From assembly GCF_000334895.1 (NCBI RefSeq), contig NZ_BAFM01000017.1, forward strand, positions 1 to 64,000: a stretch of DNA of 64,000 bases, written 5' to 3'. The position numbers and the translations under genes are program-made. The notes under the pieces are model-generated. The model had not been told where the DNA came from, made no database searches, and saw only the letters and a list, made by a program, of their open reading frames with translations. Below, piece by piece: positions 4,837 to 16,374 of the stretch (its first letter is position 1; each line of letters opens with the position of its first letter). The DNA comes from Halococcus agarilyticus (GTDB lineage Archaea > Halobacteriota > Halobacteria > Halobacteriales > Halococcaceae).

Positions 4837-6204
4837 GTGATCGAACCGGGCCCGGAGTCGGAACTACTCGACAGGGAGGAGCTGTCCACCATCGAGCAGT
4901 GGCTCGCGCCCGCGGTCGGTGTGCTCGTGGTCGTCGTCCTCCTCGCGGGCGTCGGCTTTCTCGTCTCGGGGCTCTTCGACCAGCCCGGTGCGGCCGAAAG
5001 CGACTCGTTCGGAGCCGGCCCGGCCGCCAACGGAACGGCTGCGACCATCGCGCCGGCCCAGAACGGGGCCGCGACGACAGCGACCACGCGATCGACGAAC
5101 GCGATCGCCACGGCCCCAACCACGACACCAGCTGAACGCCCAGCGCCGACAGCAACGACGGTGTCGACCGTGACATCGTCGCCGACACCGTCCCCGACCG
5201 CCACAGCCGCCACGTCGCCAACGGCCACACCGACCCCGACGACCACCGAGACGCCAACCCCGACACCGACCGCGACCGCCACGCTGACGGATACCCCGAC
5301 GGCGACTCCGACGGACACTGCAACGGCAACACGGACTCCCACGCCGACGGCGACTCCGACTGCCACACCGACTCCGACCGCGACACCGACGGCGACGGCA
5401 ACCGCGACGCCGACAGCTACCGCAACACCCGTGCCGACATCGACTGCCACACCAACCCCGACCTCGACTCCGACCCCCACCGCCACGCCGACCCCGACAC
5501 CGACGGCAACGGCAACGGCGACGCCGACTCCCACCGAGACGTCGACTCAAACATCGGCTTCGACCGAGACGCAGGCTCGAACCACGACGCCGACGGCAAC
5601 ACCGACGCCGACGGCAACACCGACGCCGACGGCAACACCGACGCCGACTCCCACCGAGACTCCCACGAGCACACCGACCCCGACTCCCACCGCTACGCCG
5701 ACTCCGACGCCGACCGAGACGACAACGGCCACCGCGACGGCGACGACGACCGCAACGCCGACTCAGGTCCCGGTTCCGACCGAGACGCAGACCCGAGCCA
5801 CGACACCGACGCCGACCGAGACAGCCACACCGAGCCCCACGTCAACTGAGACGCCGACGACAACGGCGACCGCGGCACCGACGACAACCGCAACATCGAC
5901 GACAGTAACCGCCACGAGTTCAGTGACATCGGCGACGTCGGTCACTCCATCCACGACGGAGTCGACACGGGCGACAACCGCGACCACGGAGACTGCTGCG
6001 ACAGCGACGACGCCACCGTCACGGGCGAGCGCCAGGCAGGGCGAGCGAAACGGGACGGCCAACGAGCGCGGACCGCCGACGCGGGCGAACGACGAACGGG
6101 CCGACGAACGCGGACCACCGGAACGAGGGGAGGACGACCGAACCGACGAAGTCACGGAAACCGAAGCAGCCGACGAGGAGGAGACGAGCGACGACGAGGA
6201 GTGA
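4837..6204 (+). CDS. membrane-anchored Thr/Pro-repeat (mucin-like) surface protein
   Basis: 455 aa from GTG, with a TATA-like GATAAG element about 28 bp upstream. Residues 1-24 are acidic and probably cytoplasmic; about 25-47 form one transmembrane segment; most of the rest (about 100-370) is low-complexity TPTA/TPTP repeat; the C-terminal ~70 residues are highly charged with Arg-Gly-Pro and acidic clusters. The dense Thr/Ser-Pro tract on the presumed outer face is a candidate for O-glycosylation, as in the Thr-rich stalks of haloarchaeal S-layer proteins. No enzymatic domain is visible. The repeat DNA is also open in other frames, which explains several spurious long frames here. Confidence 0.7.
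   Translation: MIEPGPESELLDREELSTIEQWLAPAVGVLVVVVLLAGVGFLVSGLFDQPGAAESDSFGAGPAANGTAATIAPAQNGAATTATTRSTNAIATAPTTTPAERPAPTATTVSTVTSSPTPSPTATAATSPTATPTPTTTETPTPTPTATATLTDTPTATPTDTATATRTPTPTATPTATPTPTATPTATATATPTATATPVPTSTATPTPTSTPTPTATPTPTPTATATATPTPTETSTQTSASTETQARTTTPTATPTPTATPTPTATPTPTPTETPTSTPTPTPTATPTPTPTETTTATATATTTATPTQVPVPTETQTRATTPTPTETATPSPTSTETPTTTATAAPTTTATSTTVTATSSVTSATSVTPSTTESTRATTATTETAATATTPPSRASARQGERNGTANERGPPTRANDERADERGPPERGEDDRTDEVTETEAADEEETSDDEE
5587..5648 (+). repeat. 18-bp perfect tandem repeat inside the Thr/Pro gene
   Basis: Three identical 18-bp units (acgccgacggcaacaccg), at 5587, 5605 and 5623, plus a partial fourth, encode Thr-Pro-Thr-Ala-Thr-Pro. They are the most recent-looking part of a longer degenerate repeat field (about 5160-5990), consistent with expansion by slippage or unequal recombination. 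Confidence 0.9.
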
Positions 6205-6258: not shown

Positions 6259-8742
6259 TCACTCGTCGCGGTCGAACGCGTGGGGCGCGCCCGCCGCCTC
6301 GCTCACCCGCACGGCCGCGACGCTCTCGGCGACGTTGTGGACGCGAACGATGTCCGCCCCTCGCTCGGCCGCGAGCGCGCTCGCCGCCACCGTCGCCGGG
6401 AGTCGCTCGCCCGCCTCGCTCCCGACGAGTTCGAACATCGACTTGTGGGAGTGACCCACCAGTATGGGGCAGTCGAGCGCGCGGAGCTCCCCGAGCCGGC
6501 CGAGCAGCTCGAAGCTCTCCCGGCGACGCTTGCCGAACCCCAGGCCGGGGTCGACGATCACCTGGTCGCGGTCGAGCCCCGCCTGCTCGCACCGTCGGAC
6601 GAGCGGTTCGAGCTCTCGAACGGTGTCCTCGACCACGTCGTCGTACTCGGGCTCGGCATCGGGATCCACAGGGGTATCCATACTGTGCATCACCACGATC
6701 GGGCAGTCGAACTCGGCGGCGACGAAGCGCATCTCGGGATCGTCGAGCCCGGAAACGTCGTTGATGATGTCGGCTCCGGCCGAGAGCGCCGCCCGCGCGA
6801 CGTCGGCCTTCCGGGTGTCGATCGAGAGCAGCGCGTCGACGTCGGCGATGCGCTCGATCACGGGGACGACCCGGTCACGCTCCTCGGCTATCGACACCGG
6901 CTCCGCGCCCGGACGGGTGCTCTCGCCACCGATATCGATCACGTCGGCCCCCGCTGCGACCATCGCCTCGGCCTGCCGGACCGCGGCATCGGTCTCGTCG
7001 AACTCGCCACCGTCGTGAAAGCTGTCGGGCGTGACATTCAGAATGCCCATGACGGCGGTGCCCTCGTTCCACGGGTACGTCGGCCCCTCGTCGGCGGGTT
7101 CGTCACCGGGGTCGTCCGCCGGCGAACCGATGTCGAGCGCGTGCCCGATATCGGTGGCGAGCGGGCCGAGCCCGTAGGGCTGGGCGTCGAGCTTCGCCAC
7201 GAGTCGCTTGAACTGGGCGAGCGTGCCCGCGAGCACGACGTCGAGTCGCTCCTCGTGCTGGTCGTTCAGTCCCGAGACCGCACACTCGCCGCCGAGCGAG
7301 AGGAGTTCCTCCTTCAGGTACTGCGCCTGACGCGGTCGAACACGAGTCTTCAGCACACGGTGAACGGTTTTCCCCCGCATCCGGTAGACGCCGGGATCGG
7401 TGACGTGTGCGCCGGAGAGCACCCGGCGGGCGTCGTCGAGATCGTCGACCCGTTTCGGCACGTCGAGTCGACTCCAGCGGGTTCTGGCCTCTCGCACAGT
7501 GTAGAGCGAGCCACAGACCACGACACAGTCGTCGGAATCGGCGGCCGCGATCGCGTCAGCGACCGCGTCGGTGACCGCGTTCCGGTGCTCGACGGCGACG
7601 CCCTCGCGCTCGAACGACGTCGCGAGCACGCCCTCGTCCTCCGCGCGGTCGACGTCGGGCTGACAGGTGACGGCGCGATCCGGCGTCGGAAGCGCGTCGA
7701 TCATGCCCCGGTGATCCTTGTCGGCGAGCGCGCCGAAGACGAGGTGGAGGTCGTCGTACTCGAACTCGTCGAGGACGCGCGCGAGGCGCTCGCACGCGCC
7801 GGGGTTGTGCGCGCCGTCGAGCGCGACCAGTGGCTCCCGACCCATGACCTCGAACCGACCGGGCCAGTAGGCCGTCCGCAGCCCCTGCGCGAGGTCGTCG
7901 CCGTCGATCTCGACGCCGAGTGCGCTTCCGACGTGGCGGGCGAGCGGGATCGCGACGCCGGCGTTGTCGGCCTGGTGTGCGCCCACGAGCGGGAGTCTGG
8001 TCTCGACGTCCAAGTCCGCTCCCGAGAGTGCGACCCGGCCCTCGATGCCTGCCCGGCCGCCGTAGGTCACCGCCACGTCGGCGTCGGCCCCGGACCCGAC
8101 GGTCACGACCTCGTCGGCCACCGCGTCGATCCCGGTTCGTGCCTCGCCGGTGGCGGCGGTCACGAGCGGCCCGTCGCTGGGGGCGACGTGAGCGAGGTCG
8201 CGCCCGATCTCCTCCACTGTGTCGCCGAGCACGTCGGTGTGTTCGAGCGTGACGCTCGTGACCGCGCTCGCTACCGGATCGACGACGCTGGTCGCGTCGT
8301 ACTGTCCCCCGATGCCGACTTCGAGCACCGCACAGTCGACGTCCCGGCGTGCGAACTCCCAGAACGCGAGCCCCGTGATCGTCTCGAAGAAGGTCGGTGA
8401 GTCGCCGTCGGTCGCGCGGTCGACGATGTATGGTCGCACCGTCTCGACGTACTCCGTGAGGGCGGCCTTCGATATAGTGCGGCCGTTCACCGTGACGCGC
8501 TCGCGGATCGAATCGAGGTGTGGCGAGGTGTAGAGTCCGACGTCGAGACCGGCCTCGTGGAGTATCGACTCGGCCATCCGCGCGGTCGAGCCCTTCCCGT
8601 TCGAGCCCGCAACCTGGGCGAACGCGCACTCCTCGTGGGGGTCGTCGAGCGCGGCCAGGAGGTCGCGCGTCGCGGAGAGCCGCGGCTTTGGGGGGTAGCG
8701 CCGCAGCCCGAAGAGGAAGTTCGCGGCGTCGTGGAACTCCAT
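6259..8742 (-). CDS. folCP: bifunctional folylpolyglutamate synthase / dihydropteroate synthase
   Basis: 827 aa fusion. The N-terminal Mur-ligase-type FolC domain (about 1-430) has the ATP loop GSNGKGST and the HNPGACER stretch. A middle region (about 435-550) has the PYGLGPLATDIG-type sequence often found ahead of archaeal pterin-binding domains. The C-terminal FolP domain starts near residue 565 (MGILNVTPDSFHDGG) and includes DIGGESTRPGAEPV. It should condense pterin pyrophosphate with p-aminobenzoate and add glutamates to the folate, in the cytoplasm. The FolC-FolP fusion is typical of haloarchaea. The ATG at 8742 is chosen because the frame upstream loses conservation; the gene lies 145 bp downstream of the TIM-barrel gene on the same strand. 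Confidence 0.95.
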   Translation of the reverse strand: MEFHDAANFLFGLRRYPPKPRLSATRDLLAALDDPHEECAFAQVAGSNGKGSTARMAESILHEAGLDVGLYTSPHLDSIRERVTVNGRTISKAALTEYVETVRPYIVDRATDGDSPTFFETITGLAFWEFARRDVDCAVLEVGIGGQYDATSVVDPVASAVTSVTLEHTDVLGDTVEEIGRDLAHVAPSDGPLVTAATGEARTGIDAVADEVVTVGSGADADVAVTYGGRAGIEGRVALSGADLDVETRLPLVGAHQADNAGVAIPLARHVGSALGVEIDGDDLAQGLRTAYWPGRFEVMGREPLVALDGAHNPGACERLARVLDEFEYDDLHLVFGALADKDHRGMIDALPTPDRAVTCQPDVDRAEDEGVLATSFEREGVAVEHRNAVTDAVADAIAAADSDDCVVVCGSLYTVREARTRWSRLDVPKRVDDLDDARRVLSGAHVTDPGVYRMRGKTVHRVLKTRVRPRQAQYLKEELLSLGGECAVSGLNDQHEERLDVVLAGTLAQFKRLVAKLDAQPYGLGPLATDIGHALDIGSPADDPGDEPADEGPTYPWNEGTAVMGILNVTPDSFHDGGEFDETDAAVRQAEAMVAAGADVIDIGGESTRPGAEPVSIAEERDRVVPVIERIADVDALLSIDTRKADVARAALSAGADIINDVSGLDDPEMRFVAAEFDCPIVVMHSMDTPVDPDAEPEYDDVVEDTVRELEPLVRRCEQAGLDRDQVIVDPGLGFGKRRRESFELLGRLGELRALDCPILVGHSHKSMFELVGSEAGERLPATVAASALAAERGADIVRVHNVAESVAAVRVSEAAGAPHAFDRDE

Positions 8743-8887
8743 ATCGGATTCCCGTGGGGACGTGGTTTGAGCGTGTCGGACGGGCTCGTTCACCCACCTG
8801 TCGACGGTTCCCACAGTCATAGGCGACCGTGTTGAAAACCTCTGGTCGTTTTCCGCGGTCGGCGGCGTTCGCCGGAACGATCGCGGT

Positions 8888-9736
8888 TCAGCAGTACGTC
8901 GAGAGCGCCTCGTAGGCCTCCTGTGCAGCTTCGTCGGGCCGGTCGGGGTAGGTGTAGAGTTCGAGCGTGGCGAACCCATCGTACCCGATGTCGTCGAGCG
9001 CGTCGAAGATCGCCCGAAAGTCGAGATCGCCCTCGCCGGGGATCCGATGGTAGTGTTTTCCTCGAACGCCGCCGACGATGTCCTCCAGATGAACGCCCGT
9101 AACGTGCCCCGCACTTCGTCGGATCGCCTCGACGGGCTCCTCGCCGTAGACCGCGGCGTGACCGACGTCGAGGTTGATTCCGAGCGAGTCGCGACCGACG
9201 TCGTCGATGAGCGCGAGCACTTCCTCGGTGCACTCCACGAGGAGTTCGGGTTCGTACTCGATCCCGACGTCGACGCCGTGTTCTTCGGCGTAATCGAGGA
9301 TCGCACCGATCGAGTCGCGGAGATACTCGTGAGCGCGCTCGGGCGGCGTGCCGGGGAGCGGTCGGCCGGTGGCGAGACAGACCGCGGGCGCACCGGTCAG
9401 GGCGGCGAGGTCGATCGCGCGCTTCGTGTACTCGATCCGCCACTCCCGGTCGTCGTCGTCCGCAGTGATCACGCTCGGATCGAAAAACGACGAGGGCGGT
9501 GCGTCGTCGTAGTAGCCCGTCGCGGTGTTGGCGTTGATGTTCGAGACCCGTAGTTCAGAGTCGTCGAGCGCCGCGACCAGGCGCTCCTCGTCGGCGTCGT
9601 CGAACGTCGGGAAGTACGCGTGGGGCTCGTCGCCCAAAATTTCGACGCCAGCGTAGCCGTGATCGGCGATCGATTCGATCGCCTCGGGGAGCGCGTGGCG
9701 GGTGTAGGCGTTCGTCGAGAACGCGAGATCGACCAT
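8888..9736 (-). CDS. sugar phosphate isomerase/epimerase-like TIM-barrel protein (first of two)
   Basis: 282 aa, AP-endonuclease-2/xylose-isomerase-like TIM barrel. The expected metal ligands are visible: Glu160 (GIEYEPE), Asp190 with His193 (NLDVGH), His216 (VHLEDI) and Glu259 (TLELY). The substrate is unknown. It is the last gene of a minus-strand operon (TatD-like, TIM barrel, UbiA, this gene) and a distant paralogue of the 10721-11551 product. In bacterial ebo clusters a protein of this fold (EboE) accompanies UbiA- and TatD-like proteins, and that context is the best clue to its role. ATG 9736 is chosen because the extra 17 upstream residues do not fit the family's usual N-terminus. Confidence 0.85.
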   Translation of the reverse strand: MVDLAFSTNAYTRHALPEAIESIADHGYAGVEILGDEPHAYFPTFDDADEERLVAALDDSELRVSNINANTATGYYDDAPPSSFFDPSVITADDDDREWRIEYTKRAIDLAALTGAPAVCLATGRPLPGTPPERAHEYLRDSIGAILDYAEEHGVDVGIEYEPELLVECTEEVLALIDDVGRDSLGINLDVGHAAVYGEEPVEAIRRSAGHVTGVHLEDIVGGVRGKHYHRIPGEGDLDFRAIFDALDDIGYDGFATLELYTYPDRPDEAAQEAYEALSTYC

Positions 9737-9787
9737 ACCCCTCCAGATGGCCGCCCACGACAAACACCTTACGAGCCACCGGGCCAA

Positions 9788-10714
9788 TCACGAGACGTCG
9801 AACGTTCGGGCGAGCGCGAGCGCGGGCACCAGAAAGGCGAGCACGGCGAGCGACCACGTGATCCCGACGACCGCCGCGAACGCCGCGTCGAGCAGCGCGA
9901 GTCCGAGCACGCAGGCACCGACAGCGGGGCCCACAGTTCCCGGACGAGGATCGGCGTACGCCGGTGCGAGCGCGCGCCCGGTCCACGCGAGGAACGCGGC
10001 GACGAGCACGACCGCGAGCCCACCCCAAGCGATCGGCGGACCGACGGTTGCGACGACCCCGAGCACCGCCGCGGTGGCCACGACCACCCCGGCGGCCGCG
10101 GCCGCGACCGCTCCTCGCGGGGTGTCGGTCGCCTCGTTCGCGGCCATGTACGTCACCAGGGCGATGTAGAGCGCGACGATCACCGGAACTGCGAGCGCCC
10201 ACGCCGGGAGGGCGATCGTGCCCGCGGCGACCGTCCCGAGAAGGACGTTCAGCCCGCGCGCAGCCCCCATCGCGAGGAATCCGACGGGACCGCCCTTCAG
10301 CGCGCCGTCGTAGAGCGCGATCGTGGCCGCGAGCGCCGCCGCGAGAACACCAGCACGCAGGCCGGCAGCGACGAACGCGAGGACGACGCCGGCCACGAGC
10401 AGCGATCCGCCGAGCACGCCCGCCGCTCGCCGTGACACTCGTCCGGAAGGGATCGGTCGTTCGGGTCGCTCGGTCGCGTCGATCGGCGCGTCGAAGTAGT
10501 CGTTCAGCGTGGTGCCACCGGCGTACAGCAGAACGGCGGCGAGACAGAGGCCGGCGAGCGCGGGAATCGGGACCGCCGTACCGGCCGCAGTCGCAAGCGC
10601 CGCGCCGAGCAGCACGTCCGGCGGCGCGCTGAAGAGGTTCGGGACGCGCACCAGCGTGGCGTAGGCTTCGAGTCGCTCCCGCAAGCCGGACTCGTCGGGT
10701 CGATCGACCGCCAC
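9788..10714 (-). CDS. UbiA-family prenyltransferase (EboC-like)
   Basis: 308 aa, GTG start, about nine transmembrane segments. The first aspartate-rich motif of the UbiA superfamily is intact (NDYFDAPIDATERPERPIPSG begins with NDYFD and ends in RPIPSG, about residues 71-91). The second motif is weaker (YDGALKGGP), as in EboC/SCO3242-type members. The family attaches or moves isoprenoid chains on polar acceptors in the membrane; this subfamily's acceptor is unknown. It lies six bases after the TIM-barrel gene 10721-11551, so the two are cotranscribed. EboC-type identity is inferred from motif state plus neighbours. Confidence 0.85.
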   Translation of the reverse strand: MAVDRPDESGLRERLEAYATLVRVPNLFSAPPDVLLGAALATAAGTAVPIPALAGLCLAAVLLYAGGTTLNDYFDAPIDATERPERPIPSGRVSRRAAGVLGGSLLVAGVVLAFVAAGLRAGVLAAALAATIALYDGALKGGPVGFLAMGAARGLNVLLGTVAAGTIALPAWALAVPVIVALYIALVTYMAANEATDTPRGAVAAAAAGVVVATAAVLGVVATVGPPIAWGGLAVVLVAAFLAWTGRALAPAYADPRPGTVGPAVGACVLGLALLDAAFAAVVGITWSLAVLAFLVPALALARTFDVS

Positions 10715-10720
10715 CCGCCG

Positions 10721-11551
10721 TCAGACCCACCCACCGTCTTCGAGGGAGGCCATCGCGTCGCGGGCGGTCTCGGCCGCGGTTGCCTCGTAGGGGTAAAGCT
10801 CGACCGTGACGAACCCCTCGTAGTTCCGGTCGTCGAGCGCCGCGAGAAAGGCGTCGATGTCCATCGCGCCGTCGCCGAGCTGGGTGTGCTCGTGGCTCCG
10901 GTCTTCGGGGATGTCCTCCAGATGGACGTGATCCACGAACGGTTCGAGCGTGTCGAAGGCCTCGACGGGATCCTCGTCCACACAGAAGAGGTGGCCGGCG
11001 TCGAAGTTACACCGGATTCGAGGGTGGTCGATCCGGTCGGCGAACTCGCGGAACTGGTCGGAGGTCTCGATCAGGAGGTCGGGTTCGGGTTCGACGTGGA
11101 GATCGACCCCCACGTCCTCGGCGACCGGGAGCACCTCGCGGAGGCTCTCGACGAACGTGTCGAGCGCCCACTCGCGGGACTCGTCGTCGGGAATCGGCCC
11201 GCCAGGCTCGATCGAGATGTAGTCGTGATCGAGCGCGGCCGCCGTCCGTAGCGCGGCCGTCGTGTAGTCGATGCGCTTCTGGCGGTAGTCGGGGTCGGGC
11301 TCGATGTAGGACGGGTGATGGAACCCCTCGATCGCCGTGAGCATGAACGCGTTGCAGTTGCTGATCGCGATCGCGTGCTCGTCGAGTGCGTCGCGCACGT
11401 CGGCGACCGTCTCGTCGTCGACGTCGTGGGGGTAGAGATGCGGCCGGTCGAACAGGAGTTCGATCCCGTCGTATCCCGCGTCGGCGACGATTTCGATGGC
11501 TTCCTCCCAGTCGTACTCGCGGAACGCGTTGGCCGAGAATCCGAACTTCAT
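10721..11551 (-). CDS. sugar phosphate isomerase/epimerase-like TIM-barrel protein (second of two)
   Basis: 276 aa, ATG start. Same fold as the 8888-9736 product with metal ligands Glu154 (HVEPEPD), Asp184/His187 (NFDAGH), His210 (VHLEDI) and Glu251 (VELYPY). Its start codon overlaps the stop of the TatD-like gene by four bases, which points to translational coupling. Having two divergent copies in one cluster suggests two related reactions or a heteromeric enzyme. The substrate is unknown; the partners suggest a phosphorylated polyol or sugar headgroup (inference). Confidence 0.85.
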   Translation of the reverse strand: MKFGFSANAFREYDWEEAIEIVADAGYDGIELLFDRPHLYPHDVDDETVADVRDALDEHAIAISNCNAFMLTAIEGFHHPSYIEPDPDYRQKRIDYTTAALRTAAALDHDYISIEPGGPIPDDESREWALDTFVESLREVLPVAEDVGVDLHVEPEPDLLIETSDQFREFADRIDHPRIRCNFDAGHLFCVDEDPVEAFDTLEPFVDHVHLEDIPEDRSHEHTQLGDGAMDIDAFLAALDDRNYEGFVTVELYPYEATAAETARDAMASLEDGGWV

Positions 11552-12351
11552 CGCGGATCGTACTCGAAGTTCGGCGATTGATCGAAGAACTCGTAGGGGT
11601 TGTCGAAGACGACCTTCTTGACGTCCTCGCGCGGCCAGCCCCGATCGAGCATCTTGTCCCTCGCTTTCGGCACCGCGAGCGGATCGGAGGGGTCCCAGTC
11701 GGCGGCGCTGTTGAACAGCATTTTGTCGGTGCCGTGCTCTTCGAGGAGGTCGATCGCCTTCTCGTCGGCGATCTTGCCGGGGTACAGCGTGAATCCGACC
11801 CAGCAGTCCGTCGTCAGCGAGGTCTCGATCGTCTCGGGGGTGTTGTGATCGATGACGATGCGTTCCTGCGTCACGCCCTCGTCTTCGATGATCTCGACGA
11901 TCCGCTCGGTTCCTTCTGGTTTGTTCGTGTGTGGCGTGTGGATGATGACCGGGAGTTCGCGCTCTTCCGCCATTCGGAGCTGCTCACGAAGAGCCCACTC
12001 CTCGTCGTCGGTTCCTTGATCGAACCCGATCTCGCCGACGCCGACGACGTTCTCGCGGTCGAGGTACTCGGGGACGCGATCGAGGACGTCTTCGGCCATC
12101 TCGCGGTAGTTCGCCTCCTTGGGTTCGAGGCCGATCGTGACGTAGTGATCCATCCCCGCCGCGCGCTCGGCGCGATCGGTCTCGAAGTCGATGATCTGTT
12201 CGAAGTAATCGAAGAAGGAACCGGCGTGCTGTTTGTCGGTGCCGCTCCAGAACGCGGGCTCGATGCAGCACTCGACGCCGGCGCGGCGCGCGCGTCGGTA
12301 GTCGTCGGCCGAGCGCGACACCATGTGCATGTGCGGGTCGATGATCTCCAT
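11548..12351 (-). CDS. TatD-family metal-dependent hydrolase (EboB-like)
   Basis: 267 aa amidohydrolase-fold protein. Metal ligands are intact: His7 and His9 (DPHMHM), Glu107 (GEIGFD), His138 (IIHTPH), His169 (IDHNT) and Asp218 (NSAADW). TatD proteins include DNases and other hydrolases, while EboB-type members sit in ebo clusters with unknown substrate. It is the promoter-proximal gene of the minus-strand arm; a TATATATT-like box is centred 26-27 bp upstream of the ATG, so the transcript is probably leaderless. Confidence 0.85.
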   Translation of the reverse strand: MEIIDPHMHMVSRSADDYRRARRAGVECCIEPAFWSGTDKQHAGSFFDYFEQIIDFETDRAERAAGMDHYVTIGLEPKEANYREMAEDVLDRVPEYLDRENVVGVGEIGFDQGTDDEEWALREQLRMAEERELPVIIHTPHTNKPEGTERIVEIIEDEGVTQERIVIDHNTPETIETSLTTDCWVGFTLYPGKIADEKAIDLLEEHGTDKMLFNSAADWDPSDPLAVPKARDKMLDRGWPREDVKKVVFDNPYEFFDQSPNFEYDPR

Positions 12352-12373
12352 GCCCTCCGTTCAGTTCCCGGCG

Positions 12374-12381
12374 TAATATAT
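12374..12381 (-). promoter_or_regulatory. TATA box of the ebo-like minus-strand operon
   Basis: The AT-only octamer taatatat lies in GC-rich DNA, centred 26.5 bp upstream of the TatD-like ATG (12351), the exact spacing expected for a haloarchaeal leaderless start. The plus-strand arm begins at 12569, so this ~215-bp region separates two divergent transcription units; no equally clear TATA box was seen for the plus arm. Confidence 0.7.
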
Positions 12382-12568
12382 GTGCGGCCAACCCTTCTAG
12401 AGAGCGGACTGCGTGGCGAGATATCGGGGTAGCCACGATCCAAACGCTGAACCTTCTGTGCCCGATACGGTGATGCAGAACAATGATGGACGAGGCAGTT
12501 GCCCCCGGCAGGAGGGCAGGCGTGGACGGAGCCGGCCAACCACGGGTGAGCGAGGAAAACGCCCGCAG

Positions 12569-13795
12569 ATGGTGACGAAAACAGGCGTCTGGCTCGTCGG
12601 CGCGCGCGGGAACGTCGCCACGACCGCGATGATCGGGGCGCACGCGATCGCCAACGGCGCGACCAGTACGGACGGAATGGTCACCGAGCGCACCCCCCTG
12701 ACCACCCTCGATCTCCCGGCGGTCGAATCGCTGGTTTTCGGTGGTCACGACATTCAGGCGGGCAGCGTCGTCGACACCGCCGAGCGCCTCCACGAGCGCA
12801 ACGGGGTTCCCGACCGCGACACGCTCGACGCGGTCCACGAGGACCTCGCCGCGATCGACGACCGGATCGTGACCGGCACCGCGCGCAACTGCGGACGCAC
12901 CGTCGCGGAACTTGCCGACGACGCGGCGTTCGACGACGATACCCTCTCGCTTCGGGAGCTCGTAGAGCGCATCCGGGCCGACTACGATGCATTCCGCAAG
13001 GACGAGGATCTCGATCGGATCGTGGTGGTGAACGTCGCCTCCTCGGAGCCGCTGCCCGCCGATCCCGACCAGTACGACTCGATCGAAGCGATCGAGGCCG
13101 CGCTCGACGCCGACGACCCGCTCCCGGCGAGCGCGCTCTACGCCTACGCCGCCATCGATGCAGGCCACCCGTTCGTGAACTTCACGCCGAACGCCGCGAA
13201 CGCGCTCGGTGGAATTCAGGAACTCGCCGAACGCGAGAACGTCCCCCACATGGGTCGTGACGGCAAAACCGGCGAAACCCTCCTGAAGACCGCGCTCGCG
13301 CCGATGTTCGCTGGCCGCAATCTCCGAGTGCTGTCGTGGGAGGGCCACAACATCCTCGGGAACAAGGACGGCGCAGTGCTCGAAGACGACGCGAACAAAG
13401 CGGGCAAGCTCCAGAGCAAAGGCGGCGTGCTCGACGGCATCCTCGATTACGACACCCACAATCGAGTGCGGATCGACTACACGCCCGCACTCGGCGACTG
13501 GAAGACCGCCTGGGACGATATCCGGTTTCGGGGCTTTCTCGACACGCAGATGAAACTCCAGTTCACGTGGGAGGGCTCCGACTCGGCGCTCGCCGCGCCG
13601 CTCGTGCTCGATCTCGTGCGGCTGCTCGCGCACGCCGACGAACAGGGCGAAGGGGGGCTCCAGCCCCACCTCGCCTCCTTCTTCAAGGACCCGCTCGGCG
13701 TCGACGAACACGACCTCTCGCGGCAGTTCGATCGGCTCTACGAGTACGCCGACCGGCACGCTGCCGGAGAGAACGAAGCGGGGGATGGATCGTGA
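12569..13795 (+). CDS. inositol-3-phosphate synthase-like NAD-dependent protein
   Basis: 408 aa. The N-terminal Rossmann loop (GVWLVGARGNVATT, residues 6-19) and signature segments of myo-inositol-phosphate synthases are visible: NFTPN, GRDGKTGETLLKT and SWEGHNILGNKDG. The family converts glucose 6-phosphate to inositol 3-phosphate with transient NAD use. ATG 12569 is chosen because residues encoded upstream (from 12413) are basic and unlike the family. It overlaps the next gene by four bases. In classical ebo clusters the NAD-binding cyclase at this place is AroB-like (EboD); an inositol-phosphate-synthase fold may play the equivalent part here (inference). Confidence 0.88.
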   Translation: MVTKTGVWLVGARGNVATTAMIGAHAIANGATSTDGMVTERTPLTTLDLPAVESLVFGGHDIQAGSVVDTAERLHERNGVPDRDTLDAVHEDLAAIDDRIVTGTARNCGRTVAELADDAAFDDDTLSLRELVERIRADYDAFRKDEDLDRIVVVNVASSEPLPADPDQYDSIEAIEAALDADDPLPASALYAYAAIDAGHPFVNFTPNAANALGGIQELAERENVPHMGRDGKTGETLLKTALAPMFAGRNLRVLSWEGHNILGNKDGAVLEDDANKAGKLQSKGGVLDGILDYDTHNRVRIDYTPALGDWKTAWDDIRFRGFLDTQMKLQFTWEGSDSALAAPLVLDLVRLLAHADEQGEGGLQPHLASFFKDPLGVDEHDLSRQFDRLYEYADRHAAGENEAGDGS

Positions 13796-15153
13796 GCGAC
13801 GCCGCGAGCGTCGGCACTGCGGGCCGGGCGATCGTGCTCGACGTCATCGGGCTCGAACCAGGCCACCTCGATCGGGGGCTCGCGCCGAACATCGCCGACC
13901 TCGTCGGCGAATCCACACGGGCGACGCTCGAACCACCGTTCCCGTCGGTCACCCTCCCGGTGCAGACCACGCTCGCGACCGGTCGCTCGCCCGAATCCCA
14001 CGGCGACGTCTCCAGCGGCGAGTACGACCGCGCGAACGACGAGGTCGCGTTCTGGGAGCGCGATCGAGCCGACCGCGACCGGCTCTGGGAGACCGCGAGC
14101 GACGCCGGCCTCACCACCGGTGTGTTCTGTTTCCAGCATCTCATCGACACGACCGCCGACGTCGCGCTCACGCCCTCGCCGATCGAGGACGAGGACAACA
14201 ACATCCTCGAGATGAACTGCTGGACCAATCCCGACGACTTTTACGACGATCTCCAGGAAGAATACGGCCACTTCCCGCTGCACACCTACTGGGGACCGGG
14301 CGCGAACGAGGAGTCCTCCACCTGGATCCTCGACGCCGCCACGACGGCGATCGAGCGCTACGACCCTGACCTCCTGTGGATCTACGTTCCCCACCTCGAT
14401 TACGACGGCCTCCGCCACGGTGCCGGCGACGAACTCGACGACGCGATCGGGGTGGTCGACGATCTCGTCGGCGACTTCCTCGACGGGCTCCGGGGCGACG
14501 ACCGCTGGGACGAGACCGTCGTGAACGTCGTCAGCGAGTACGGCTTTCACGACGTCGACACCCCAGTCTTCCCGAACCGCGCGCTCCGGGAGGCCGGGCT
14601 GCTCTCGGTGATGGACGACGGTGAGGGTGGCGAGGAGGTCGATCTCGACTCGTCGAGGGTGTTCGCGATGGTTGATCACCAGGTGACCCACGTTTACGCC
14701 GACGAGAGCGCGGTCGACGACGCCCGCGAGGCGCTCGCCAGTCTAGAGGGCGTCGAGCGCGTGCTCGGCGACGAGGGGAAGGCCGAGTACGGTGTCGATC
14801 ACCCGAATGCGGGCGACCTGGTGCTCGTGGCGGAGCCATCGGCGTGGTTCCAGTACTACTGGTGGCGCGACGACGCCGATGCACCGTACTACGCGACCGA
14901 CATGGATATCCACGCCAAACCCGGCTTCGACCCCTGTGAGCTGTTCTTCGGTGACAGCGGTCTCGCATCGCTCGATCCAACGCTCGTCGGCGGCTCGCAC
15001 GGCCGGGCGGACTGCGGGGGGTTCTACGGGCTTGGCGGCCCGGCCGCACCCGAATCGGTCCCCGAGACGGTCGATGCGCGGACGGTCGCGCCGACGCTCG
15101 TGGATCTCCTCGATGTCGACGTGGAGATGGCGTTCGAAACCGACCCGCTCTGA
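13792..15153 (+). CDS. NPP-type alkaline phosphatase superfamily protein (EboF-like)
   Basis: 453 aa from a GTG that overlaps the previous stop (GTGA). The nucleotide-pyrophosphatase/phosphodiesterase-like core is visible: Asp17 (VLDVIG), nucleophile Thr54 in FPSVTLPVQTTLATGRSPESHG, a later PHLDYDGLRHG metal site, and C-terminal GGSHGRAD. It probably hydrolyses a phosphate mono- or diester. No signal peptide is seen, so it is likely cytoplasmic. It is cotranscribed with the inositol-phosphate-synthase-like gene, consistent with removal of phosphate from a product of that pathway (inference). Alkaline phosphatase-like EboF is a standard member of bacterial ebo clusters. Confidence 0.85.
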   Translation: MSDAASVGTAGRAIVLDVIGLEPGHLDRGLAPNIADLVGESTRATLEPPFPSVTLPVQTTLATGRSPESHGDVSSGEYDRANDEVAFWERDRADRDRLWETASDAGLTTGVFCFQHLIDTTADVALTPSPIEDEDNNILEMNCWTNPDDFYDDLQEEYGHFPLHTYWGPGANEESSTWILDAATTAIERYDPDLLWIYVPHLDYDGLRHGAGDELDDAIGVVDDLVGDFLDGLRGDDRWDETVVNVVSEYGFHDVDTPVFPNRALREAGLLSVMDDGEGGEEVDLDSSRVFAMVDHQVTHVYADESAVDDAREALASLEGVERVLGDEGKAEYGVDHPNAGDLVLVAEPSAWFQYYWWRDDADAPYYATDMDIHAKPGFDPCELFFGDSGLASLDPTLVGGSHGRADCGGFYGLGGPAAPESVPETVDARTVAPTLVDLLDVDVEMAFETDPL

Positions 15154-15732: not shown

Positions 15733-16374
15733 TCAGTCCTCCTGTCCGACCCGAATGACCTGGAGGAGCGATTCGACCGGCACGCCCTCCAGCTCCTCGA
15801 CACCGCGCTTGTCGACCAGCACGCCACAGCTCACCGGCGTGCCGCCCTCCTCGGCGATGGCGTCGACCGTCTCGGTCATGGTCGTGCCGCTCGTGATGGT
15901 GTCGTCGATCACGTAACACTCCCGGTCGCGGATCCCCGCGAAGTTCCGCGAGAAGTTCCCGCTGAGGTCGTCGATGTCGCCCTCCTCCCACTGGTGTTTT
16001 CGGGGGGCGTACGTCGCGAGGTCGGCGTCGAGTTCGAGCGCCACGGTGGTCGCGAGCGGCGTGCCGGCCTTCTCGATCCCGACCACGAGATCGATCTCCT
16101 CGTTGTCACCGTCCGTGCTGCCGAGCAGGTCGGCCATCGCGCGGCCGACGTACGAGAGCCGGGTGCTGTCGCGGCCGAACGCGCTCCAGTCGACGTGGAT
16201 GTCTTCGAGTGCGTCGGTCGCCGCCGGCTCCCGGGTCGTCGTGCCGCCGCCGCGCTCGACCAGCCAGCTCGCGGTCTCGCGCGAGACGTTGAGCTCGTCC
16301 GCGATCTCGCCGTTCGATAGCCCCTGGTCGGCGAGTTCGTTCGCGCTGCCGATCAGGTCGTCGACGTTCTTCAT
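15733..16374 (-). CDS. gfcR: transcriptional regulator GfcR (PyrE-like)
   Basis: 213 aa. Residues 1-45 form a helix-turn-helix (LADQGLSNGEIADELNVSRETASWLVER). Residues about 60-210 are a phosphoribosyltransferase-like domain with the PRPP loop CYVIDDTITSGTT. This fusion is the haloarchaeal GfcR family, known as an activator of glucose/fructose degradation genes and related to orotate phosphoribosyltransferase. It is a cytoplasmic DNA-binding regulator that probably senses a phosphorylated sugar or PRPP. A TATT-containing box (about 16400-16406 on the minus strand) lies ~27 bp upstream of the ATG. Confidence 0.92.
   Translation of the reverse strand: MKNVDDLIGSANELADQGLSNGEIADELNVSRETASWLVERGGGTTTREPAATDALEDIHVDWSAFGRDSTRLSYVGRAMADLLGSTDGDNEEIDLVVGIEKAGTPLATTVALELDADLATYAPRKHQWEEGDIDDLSGNFSRNFAGIRDRECYVIDDTITSGTTMTETVDAIAEEGGTPVSCGVLVDKRGVEELEGVPVESLLQVIRVGQED

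Follow-up and report, generated by a model that had tools for sequence, protein, structure and literature searches.

Results

The region under study, positions 8888 to 15153 of a 64,000-nt stretch of Halococcus agarilyticus DNA (NZ_BAFM01000017.1; the whole stretch is hereafter called the window), carries six genes in two divergent arms, and on this point the original prediction was borne out by coordinates and Pfam families alike. In transcription order, the minus-strand arm encodes a TatD-like metal hydrolase homologous to EboB (11548–12351; 267 aa; Pfam TatD_DNase, 9e-20), a xylose-isomerase-like TIM barrel that we call TIM1 (10721–11551; 276 aa; AP_endonuc_2, 1.2e-47), a UbiA-superfamily prenyltransferase of the EboC/SCO3242 group (9788–10714; 308 aa, GTG start; UbiA, 7e-19) and a further xylose-isomerase-like TIM barrel, TIM2 (8888–9736; 282 aa; AP_endonuc_2, 3.7e-44). 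The plus-strand arm encodes a myo-inositol-1-phosphate synthase (MIPS; 12569–13795; 408 aa, ATG start; NAD_binding_5, 7e-46, and Inos-1-P_synth, 4e-33) followed by a hydrolase of the NPP/alkaline-phosphatase superfamily homologous to EboF (13792–15153; 453 aa, GTG start; Phosphodiest, 3.8e-49). Between the arms lies an intergenic sequence (12352–12568), the presumed site of both promoters; a conserved operator there was considered and rejected, as the alignment of five such regions from the genus was unconvincing. The tight overlaps predicted within the arms held as regards close packing, but true overlaps are just two, each of 4 bp (the TatD-like gene with TIM1, and the MIPS stop with the GTG start of the NPP gene), and the other spacings are gaps of 6 bp (TIM1 to UbiA) and 51 bp (UbiA to TIM2).

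By sequence comparison we show that the cluster combines homologues of EboB, EboC and EboF with a MIPS in the place of EboD and two TIM barrels. It thus shares with the ebo operon (eboA–F of cyanobacteria, Bacteroidota, Pseudomonadota and eustigmatophyte plastids) EboB, an EboC-type prenyltransferase, EboF, a sugar-phosphate cyclase and a TIM barrel, and differs in lacking EboA, in having the unrelated MIPS in place of the AroB-like EboD, and in that its TIM barrels are not close to EboE, a TIM barrel of about 390 aa. What had been proposed as mere analogy to ebo is better described as homology. The TatD-like protein matched all nine bacterial EboB or cluster TatD proteins at 40–45% identity (195–246 bits), and its HxH, E, H, H and D residues, which we take to be the metal ligands, are kept in 16/16 aligned rows. 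The NPP protein likewise matched its nine bacterial EboF or cluster counterparts at 32–43% identity (238–275 bits), with which it shares the motif EYG (16/16 rows) where a solved NPP enzyme has DHG.

The TIM barrels are less readily assigned. TIM1 and TIM2 form two separate clades, and among bacterial proteins TIM1 best matches the additional isomerase found in MIPS-type clusters of Streptomyces (94–105 bits, vs 39 bits or less for EboE); TIM2 scored 83–93 bits against the Streptomyces cluster isomerase and at most 42 bits against EboE. TIM1 reached only 26.2 bits against the NCBIfam EboE model (cut-off 250), the best EboE match over 38 haloarchaeal loci and the window was 56 bits, compared with 278–473 bits among true EboE proteins, and the EboE branch is very long in the TIM-barrel tree. 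Both barrels score weakly against families acting on inososes or ketoses, such as IolO and IolE. The sugar-isomerase-like TIM barrels of the original prediction stand, but their pairing with EboE is doubtful; they lie nearer to the Streptomyces isomerase and are not clear EboE orthologues.

Recurrence of the gene set, named beforehand as a test of the prediction, was observed among haloarchaea: of the 37 genomes that carry this UbiA, 30 have the complete set at a single locus (30 loci, spanning 6.2–11.3 kb). These 37 genomes, out of 292 haloarchaeal genomes, have a strong match to the window UbiA (3.6e-44 or better); the next genome scored 2.1e-14, and matches from there down were taken as other UbiA proteins. 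The cluster-type MIPS occurs in 38/292 genomes, namely all 37 UbiA carriers and one more (G207), a co-occurrence with a Fisher p of 3.4e-46 (292 genomes, uncorrected for kinship). Among the 39 loci examined (38 fetched haloarchaeal loci and the window), MIPS and UbiA are both present on 33, and the exact order and orientation NPP−, MIPS−, TatD+, TIM1+, UbiA+, TIM2+ is found in 27. The six-gene set recurs far beyond chance, and these comparisons of sequence show that UbiA and this MIPS are inherited together.

The remaining loci are contig ends (e.g. G262, where the cluster is split across two contigs), rearrangements, or cases of MIPS elsewhere in the genome (G255, G249 and G020); in G255 and G249, MIPS and NPP have relocated together (L135 and L136). 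When seven genomes were asked for MIPS it was present in all seven, five of which lack it on the fetched UbiA stretch. All six genes lie on a plasmid in Halobaculum salinum, UbiA and MIPS matches are both present on plasmids of Natronococcus sp. CG52 and Halocatena salina, and Haladaptatus pallidirubidus has five of the six genes on the stretch seen, with no annotated MIPS there. One contig (G271 contig 12, L140) holds a second, broken copy of the cluster in which MIPS is fragmented, TatD and TIM genes are present and a gene of the glucose/sorbosone dehydrogenase (GSDH) type is adjacent. No relative was found in the viral contigs searched.

As to whether the UbiA protein belongs with EboC or with lipid-ether and quinone enzymes, the evidence falls on the EboC/SCO3242 side. 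Among NCBIfam models it scores highest with EboC (191.6 bits; cut-off 250), followed by SCO3242 (165.8 bits; cut-off 260), whereas geranylgeranylglycerol-phosphate geranylgeranyltransferase models score at most 63 bits. A tree of 59 rows, 18 of them haloarchaeal (from 17 of 40 fetched loci and the window, with UbiA rows shorter than 220 aa dropped), placed the haloarchaeal proteins together with those of the SCO3242 and EboC types, separate from 24 other archaeal UbiA rows (support 100/97); NCBIfam scores stood in for bacterial MenA, UbiA and heme-O rows. The haloarchaeal rows form one clade (100/98), and one EboC protein, the long-branched one of Aureibacter, groups with two Chloroflexota rows. 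Haloarchaeal (39/39) and bacterial Ebo-group (17/17) proteins all keep the first Asp-rich motif, NDxxDxxxD (N71, D72, D75 and D79), and in all 56 (39 haloarchaeal, 17 bacterial Ebo/SCO) the 11-residue block bearing the second is missing altogether; that block is present with Asp in 24/24 other archaeal UbiA proteins and contains EDxxGD in nearly all of those. Further residues are diagnostic of the Ebo group (M149 and R153 in 56/56; D136 and E194 in 55/56), with different letters in these four columns in the 24 other archaeal proteins, taking the rows listed and the four commonest letters per column.

The shared loss of the second motif marks the EboC-type enzymes as an unusual UbiA class, and may indicate that they bind the prenyl donor differently. 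According to the parts of the paper seen, the description of Ubi-297, a protein of an ebo cluster, covers the first motif and a conserved Arg, with no mention in those parts of a missing second motif (PMC9235831). The closest solved relatives are the archaeal lipid-ether (DGGGP) synthases (6m31/7bpu), which have the same fold and first Asp-rich motif, but differ in possessing the second block and in falling in a separate clade. The AlphaFold model (mean pLDDT 68.9), whose top structural matches were DGGGP synthases and other UbiA homologues, confirms only that the predicted fold is that of UbiA, and we make no claim on active-site geometry around E194 because model confidence is poor in that half. 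Identification of the protein as a DGGGP synthase paralogue or a quinone enzyme was rejected on the strength of the tree and the missing second block.

The MIPS protein scored 308.7 bits against the solved Archaeoglobus fulgidus enzyme (1u1i), and counterparts of its Lys274, Lys278, Lys306 and Lys367, which we take to be catalytic, are kept in 14/14 aligned MIPS rows. In a tree of 45 rows, 20 of them haloarchaeal, the haloarchaeal cluster MIPS proteins are sister to those of five actinomycete clusters (98/95) and, although they share these lysines with the Archaeoglobus enzyme, lie apart from 14 other euryarchaeal MIPS proteins. A role as a lone archaeal lipid enzyme was rejected on the strength of this tree and the distribution described above.

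The expectation of MIPS where EboD would lie held, with MIPS in all 37 UbiA-bearing haloarchaeal genomes and EboD not found in any of the 37, for which a search gave three weak matches of 2e-5 to 2e-8 compared with 5e-142 or better in controls. The exchange is not an archaeal peculiarity, however, as ebo-type clusters of Streptomyces, Nonomuraea, Embleya and Gemmatirosa carry MIPS without EboD. Streptomyces plasmids have the order MIPS, SCO3242-type UbiA, isomerase, EboA, TatD, EboE, NPP, unannotated stretches of Nonomuraea and Embleya match the same gene set, and the cluster of the gemmatimonad Gemmatirosa comprises TIM, MIPS, UbiA, EboF, EboB and EboE, with EboA not detected in it. Actinomycete MIPS clusters (e.g. 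Streptomyces sp. NBC_01592, L103) thus resemble the haloarchaeal ones in having MIPS, an EboC/SCO3242-type UbiA, a xylose-isomerase-like TIM barrel, EboB and EboF but no EboD; they differ in possessing EboA and EboE and in running in a single direction, whereas the haloarchaeal clusters have no EboA, two TIM barrels and a layout of two divergent arms. EboA gave no match in the 38 haloarchaeal loci and the window (the search covered loci, as distinct from whole genomes), compared with 99–329 bits among bacterial EboA proteins of other genera. EboD without MIPS was found in seven annotated plasmid loci and three Chloroflexota loci, and the two cyclases never occur together on the stretches seen of 16 bacterial loci. 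Two Chloroflexota loci place a haloarchaeal-like EboC-type UbiA gene beside TIM1-like and EboB genes (L158) or beside an NPP gene (L157).

The cluster is frequently accompanied by genes for putative extracellular oxidoreductases. Of the 37 genomes, 17, from 10 of the 16 genera, have a gene of the GSDH family (PF07995) within 10 kb of it, where 1.3 genomes and 1.2 genera would be expected by chance and the maxima in 20,000 simulations were 8 and 6; this simulation placed genes at random, handled relatedness through genus counts only and leaves room for local hot spots of secreted enzymes. Some PF07995 matches are pieces of one gene, which raised the expected count, and the simulation is therefore conservative. 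In several genera the PF07995 gene immediately adjoins NPP or separates UbiA from TIM2; one such neighbour run against Pfam also has a cupredoxin domain, and a twin-Arg-like pattern is present at the N terminus of 10 of the 15 proteins in the neighbouring GSDH cluster. Multicopper oxidase genes occur within 3 kb of a core gene in six loci and further off in a seventh. Among bacteria, a multicopper oxidase gene and a ScyD/ScyE-family gene flank one Streptomyces cluster, and a PQQ dehydrogenase flanks one Salipiger cluster.

Discussion

We cautiously favour the interpretation that this cluster is a haloarchaeal member of a MIPS-containing ebo-type branch that makes a prenylated inositol-derived cyclitol, perhaps aiding export for extracellular oxidation. 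The paper that named the ebo operon in 2016 proposed, in the sections available to us, an isoprenoid-cyclitol product from EboD and EboC (PMC5133447), and the finding that MIPS takes EboD's place in homologous clusters lends that proposal independent support. In clusters that are otherwise homologous, the cyclase is one or other of two NAD-dependent sugar-phosphate cyclases that are not homologous to each other; this argues strongly, if circumstantially, for a cyclitol as the substrate of the remaining steps, and we infer that the product is a prenylated cyclitol. MIPS would convert glucose 6-phosphate to inositol 1-phosphate, this cyclitol would be reshaped by the EboB hydrolase and by the TIM barrels, which are related to enzymes acting on inososes and ketoses, and the membrane-bound UbiA protein would attach a prenyl chain to it, in haloarchaea probably geranylgeranyl, with the NPP enzyme removing the phosphate before or after prenylation. 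Such a pathway would yield a small cyclitol that carries a prenyl chain and resides in the cytoplasmic membrane.

A function for such a product is suggested by Nostoc, whose ebo mutants all retained the scytonemin monomer intracellularly; in the portions of that study at hand, the role of ebo in metabolite export is shown only genetically and in this organism (PMC6282210). The oxidoreductase neighbours fit the Nostoc export work, and by analogy with the Nostoc cluster, the one ebo cluster studied genetically, and in view of these frequent neighbouring genes for Tat-type oxidoreductases, the product may assist in exporting a compound that is then oxidised outside. A broader generalisation, which we put forward only tentatively and think unlikely, is that EboB, EboC, EboF and the TIM barrels constitute an ebo core that serves generally for cyclitol prenylation and takes either of two unrelated ring-forming enzymes, EboD or MIPS, that EboC enzymes represent a distinct UbiA class working with a single Asp motif, and that haloarchaea use the MIPS version to make an undescribed geranylgeranyl-inositol lipid which aids export of a compound to extracellular quinoprotein and copper oxidases.

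Several observations weigh against the prenylated-cyclitol interpretation. The only in vitro activity of the EboC group found reported, as described in the parts of the source seen, is farnesylation by Ubi-297 of an aromatic acid, 8-hydroxyquinoline-2-carboxylate (8-HQA), and not of a cyclitol (PMC9235831). The UbiA protein falls below the cut-offs of both the EboC (191.6 vs 250 bits) and SCO3242 (165.8 vs 260 bits) models, and branching order among the haloarchaeal, EboC and SCO3242 groups is poorly supported (45/48). EboA is missing from the haloarchaeal loci and the presence of EboE is doubtful. Two Chloroflexota genomes with a haloarchaeal-like UbiA lack MIPS, and their matches to EboD are limited to weaker, AroB-like ones. 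In the genome from which the window comes, no PF07995 gene lies near the cluster. In the MIPS tree, the Gemmatirosa cluster MIPS has a long branch and is placed next to the euryarchaeal proteins, so such clusters may have acquired MIPS more than once. Finally, G207 (L133, 9251–10492) and a Halomarina plasmid (L186, 5986–7230) encode the same type of MIPS without an EboC-type UbiA nearby, and MIPS can therefore serve other ends; the Halomarina gene adjoins annotated glycosyltransferase genes, which suggests recruitment for glycan work.

The alternative that survives best, although we consider it improbable, is an aromatic or enolic prenylated product, for which inositol phosphate supplied by MIPS would be oxidised and dehydrated by the IolE/IolI-like TIM barrels to a polyhydroxylated ring and then prenylated on carbon by UbiA in the manner of aromatic prenyltransferases. 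The Ubi-297 activity is consistent with this, as are the weak matches of the TIM barrels to the IolO and IolE families and the Gfo/Idh/MocA oxidoreductases that flank some loci (Ketogulonicigenium L146 and Haladaptatus L187). However, there is no dehydrogenase among the six conserved genes, and 8-HQA is a tested substrate as opposed to a known pathway intermediate.

We regard as quite remote the explanation that this is an ordinary inositol-lipid or osmolyte locus, in which MIPS feeds archaetidylinositol or a solute and UbiA is a second DGGGP synthase. Haloarchaeal lipids with a myo-inositol headgroup have been reported, and Haloferax has another MIPS-like gene, HVO_B0213, tabulated against AF_1794, in the parts of that report available (PMC8305020); the closest solved structures to the UbiA protein are, moreover, DGGGP synthases. 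Yet the protein lies outside the archaeal UbiA clade and is without the second Asp block, this MIPS occurs in just 38 of 292 haloarchaea, and seven of the eight recurring neighbour clusters run against Pfam received names, none of which was a CDP-alcohol transferase. A catabolic cyclitol or sugar locus with an unrelated UbiA gene caught inside it would accommodate the TIM barrels and the catabolic-family oxidoreductases near some loci, but is scarcely credible given that MIPS is biosynthetic and that 27 of the 39 loci examined share one gene order, with UbiA inside the operon.

Ebo clusters are already known, and individual genes of the kind described here are annotated in databases (SCO3242 family and EboE). 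No literature on MIPS in ebo clusters or on ebo-type clusters in archaea was found among open-licence PMC papers, and within that body of work both appear to be undescribed. The main text of the 2016 ebo paper contains no word beginning "inositol" (PMC5133447), and its authors noted, in the sections seen, that actinobacterial EboA is fused to a xylose-isomerase-like domain. With the MIPS version the idea of a pathway acting on a cyclitol becomes testable, as labelled inositol can be used and haloarchaea are open to manipulation.

The surroundings of the cluster in the window include a minus-strand gene (15733–16374) whose product has an N-terminal helix-turn-helix-like stretch and a phosphoribosyltransferase-like part, and which may resemble the haloarchaeal regulator GfcR; besides the window, one near relative (L046) has this gene close to the cluster. 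A gene for a fused Mur-ligase-type/dihydropteroate-synthase protein immediately follows TIM2 in the window (6259–8796, minus strand) and in most of the fetched loci of the genus. Both this folate-enzyme fusion and the regulator-like gene were rejected as parts of the cluster, since they lie beside it in loci of its own genus only. Further along, an open reading frame on the plus strand (4837–6204) contains a very long Thr/Pro/Ala repeat tract and probably encodes the stalk of a secreted or surface protein.

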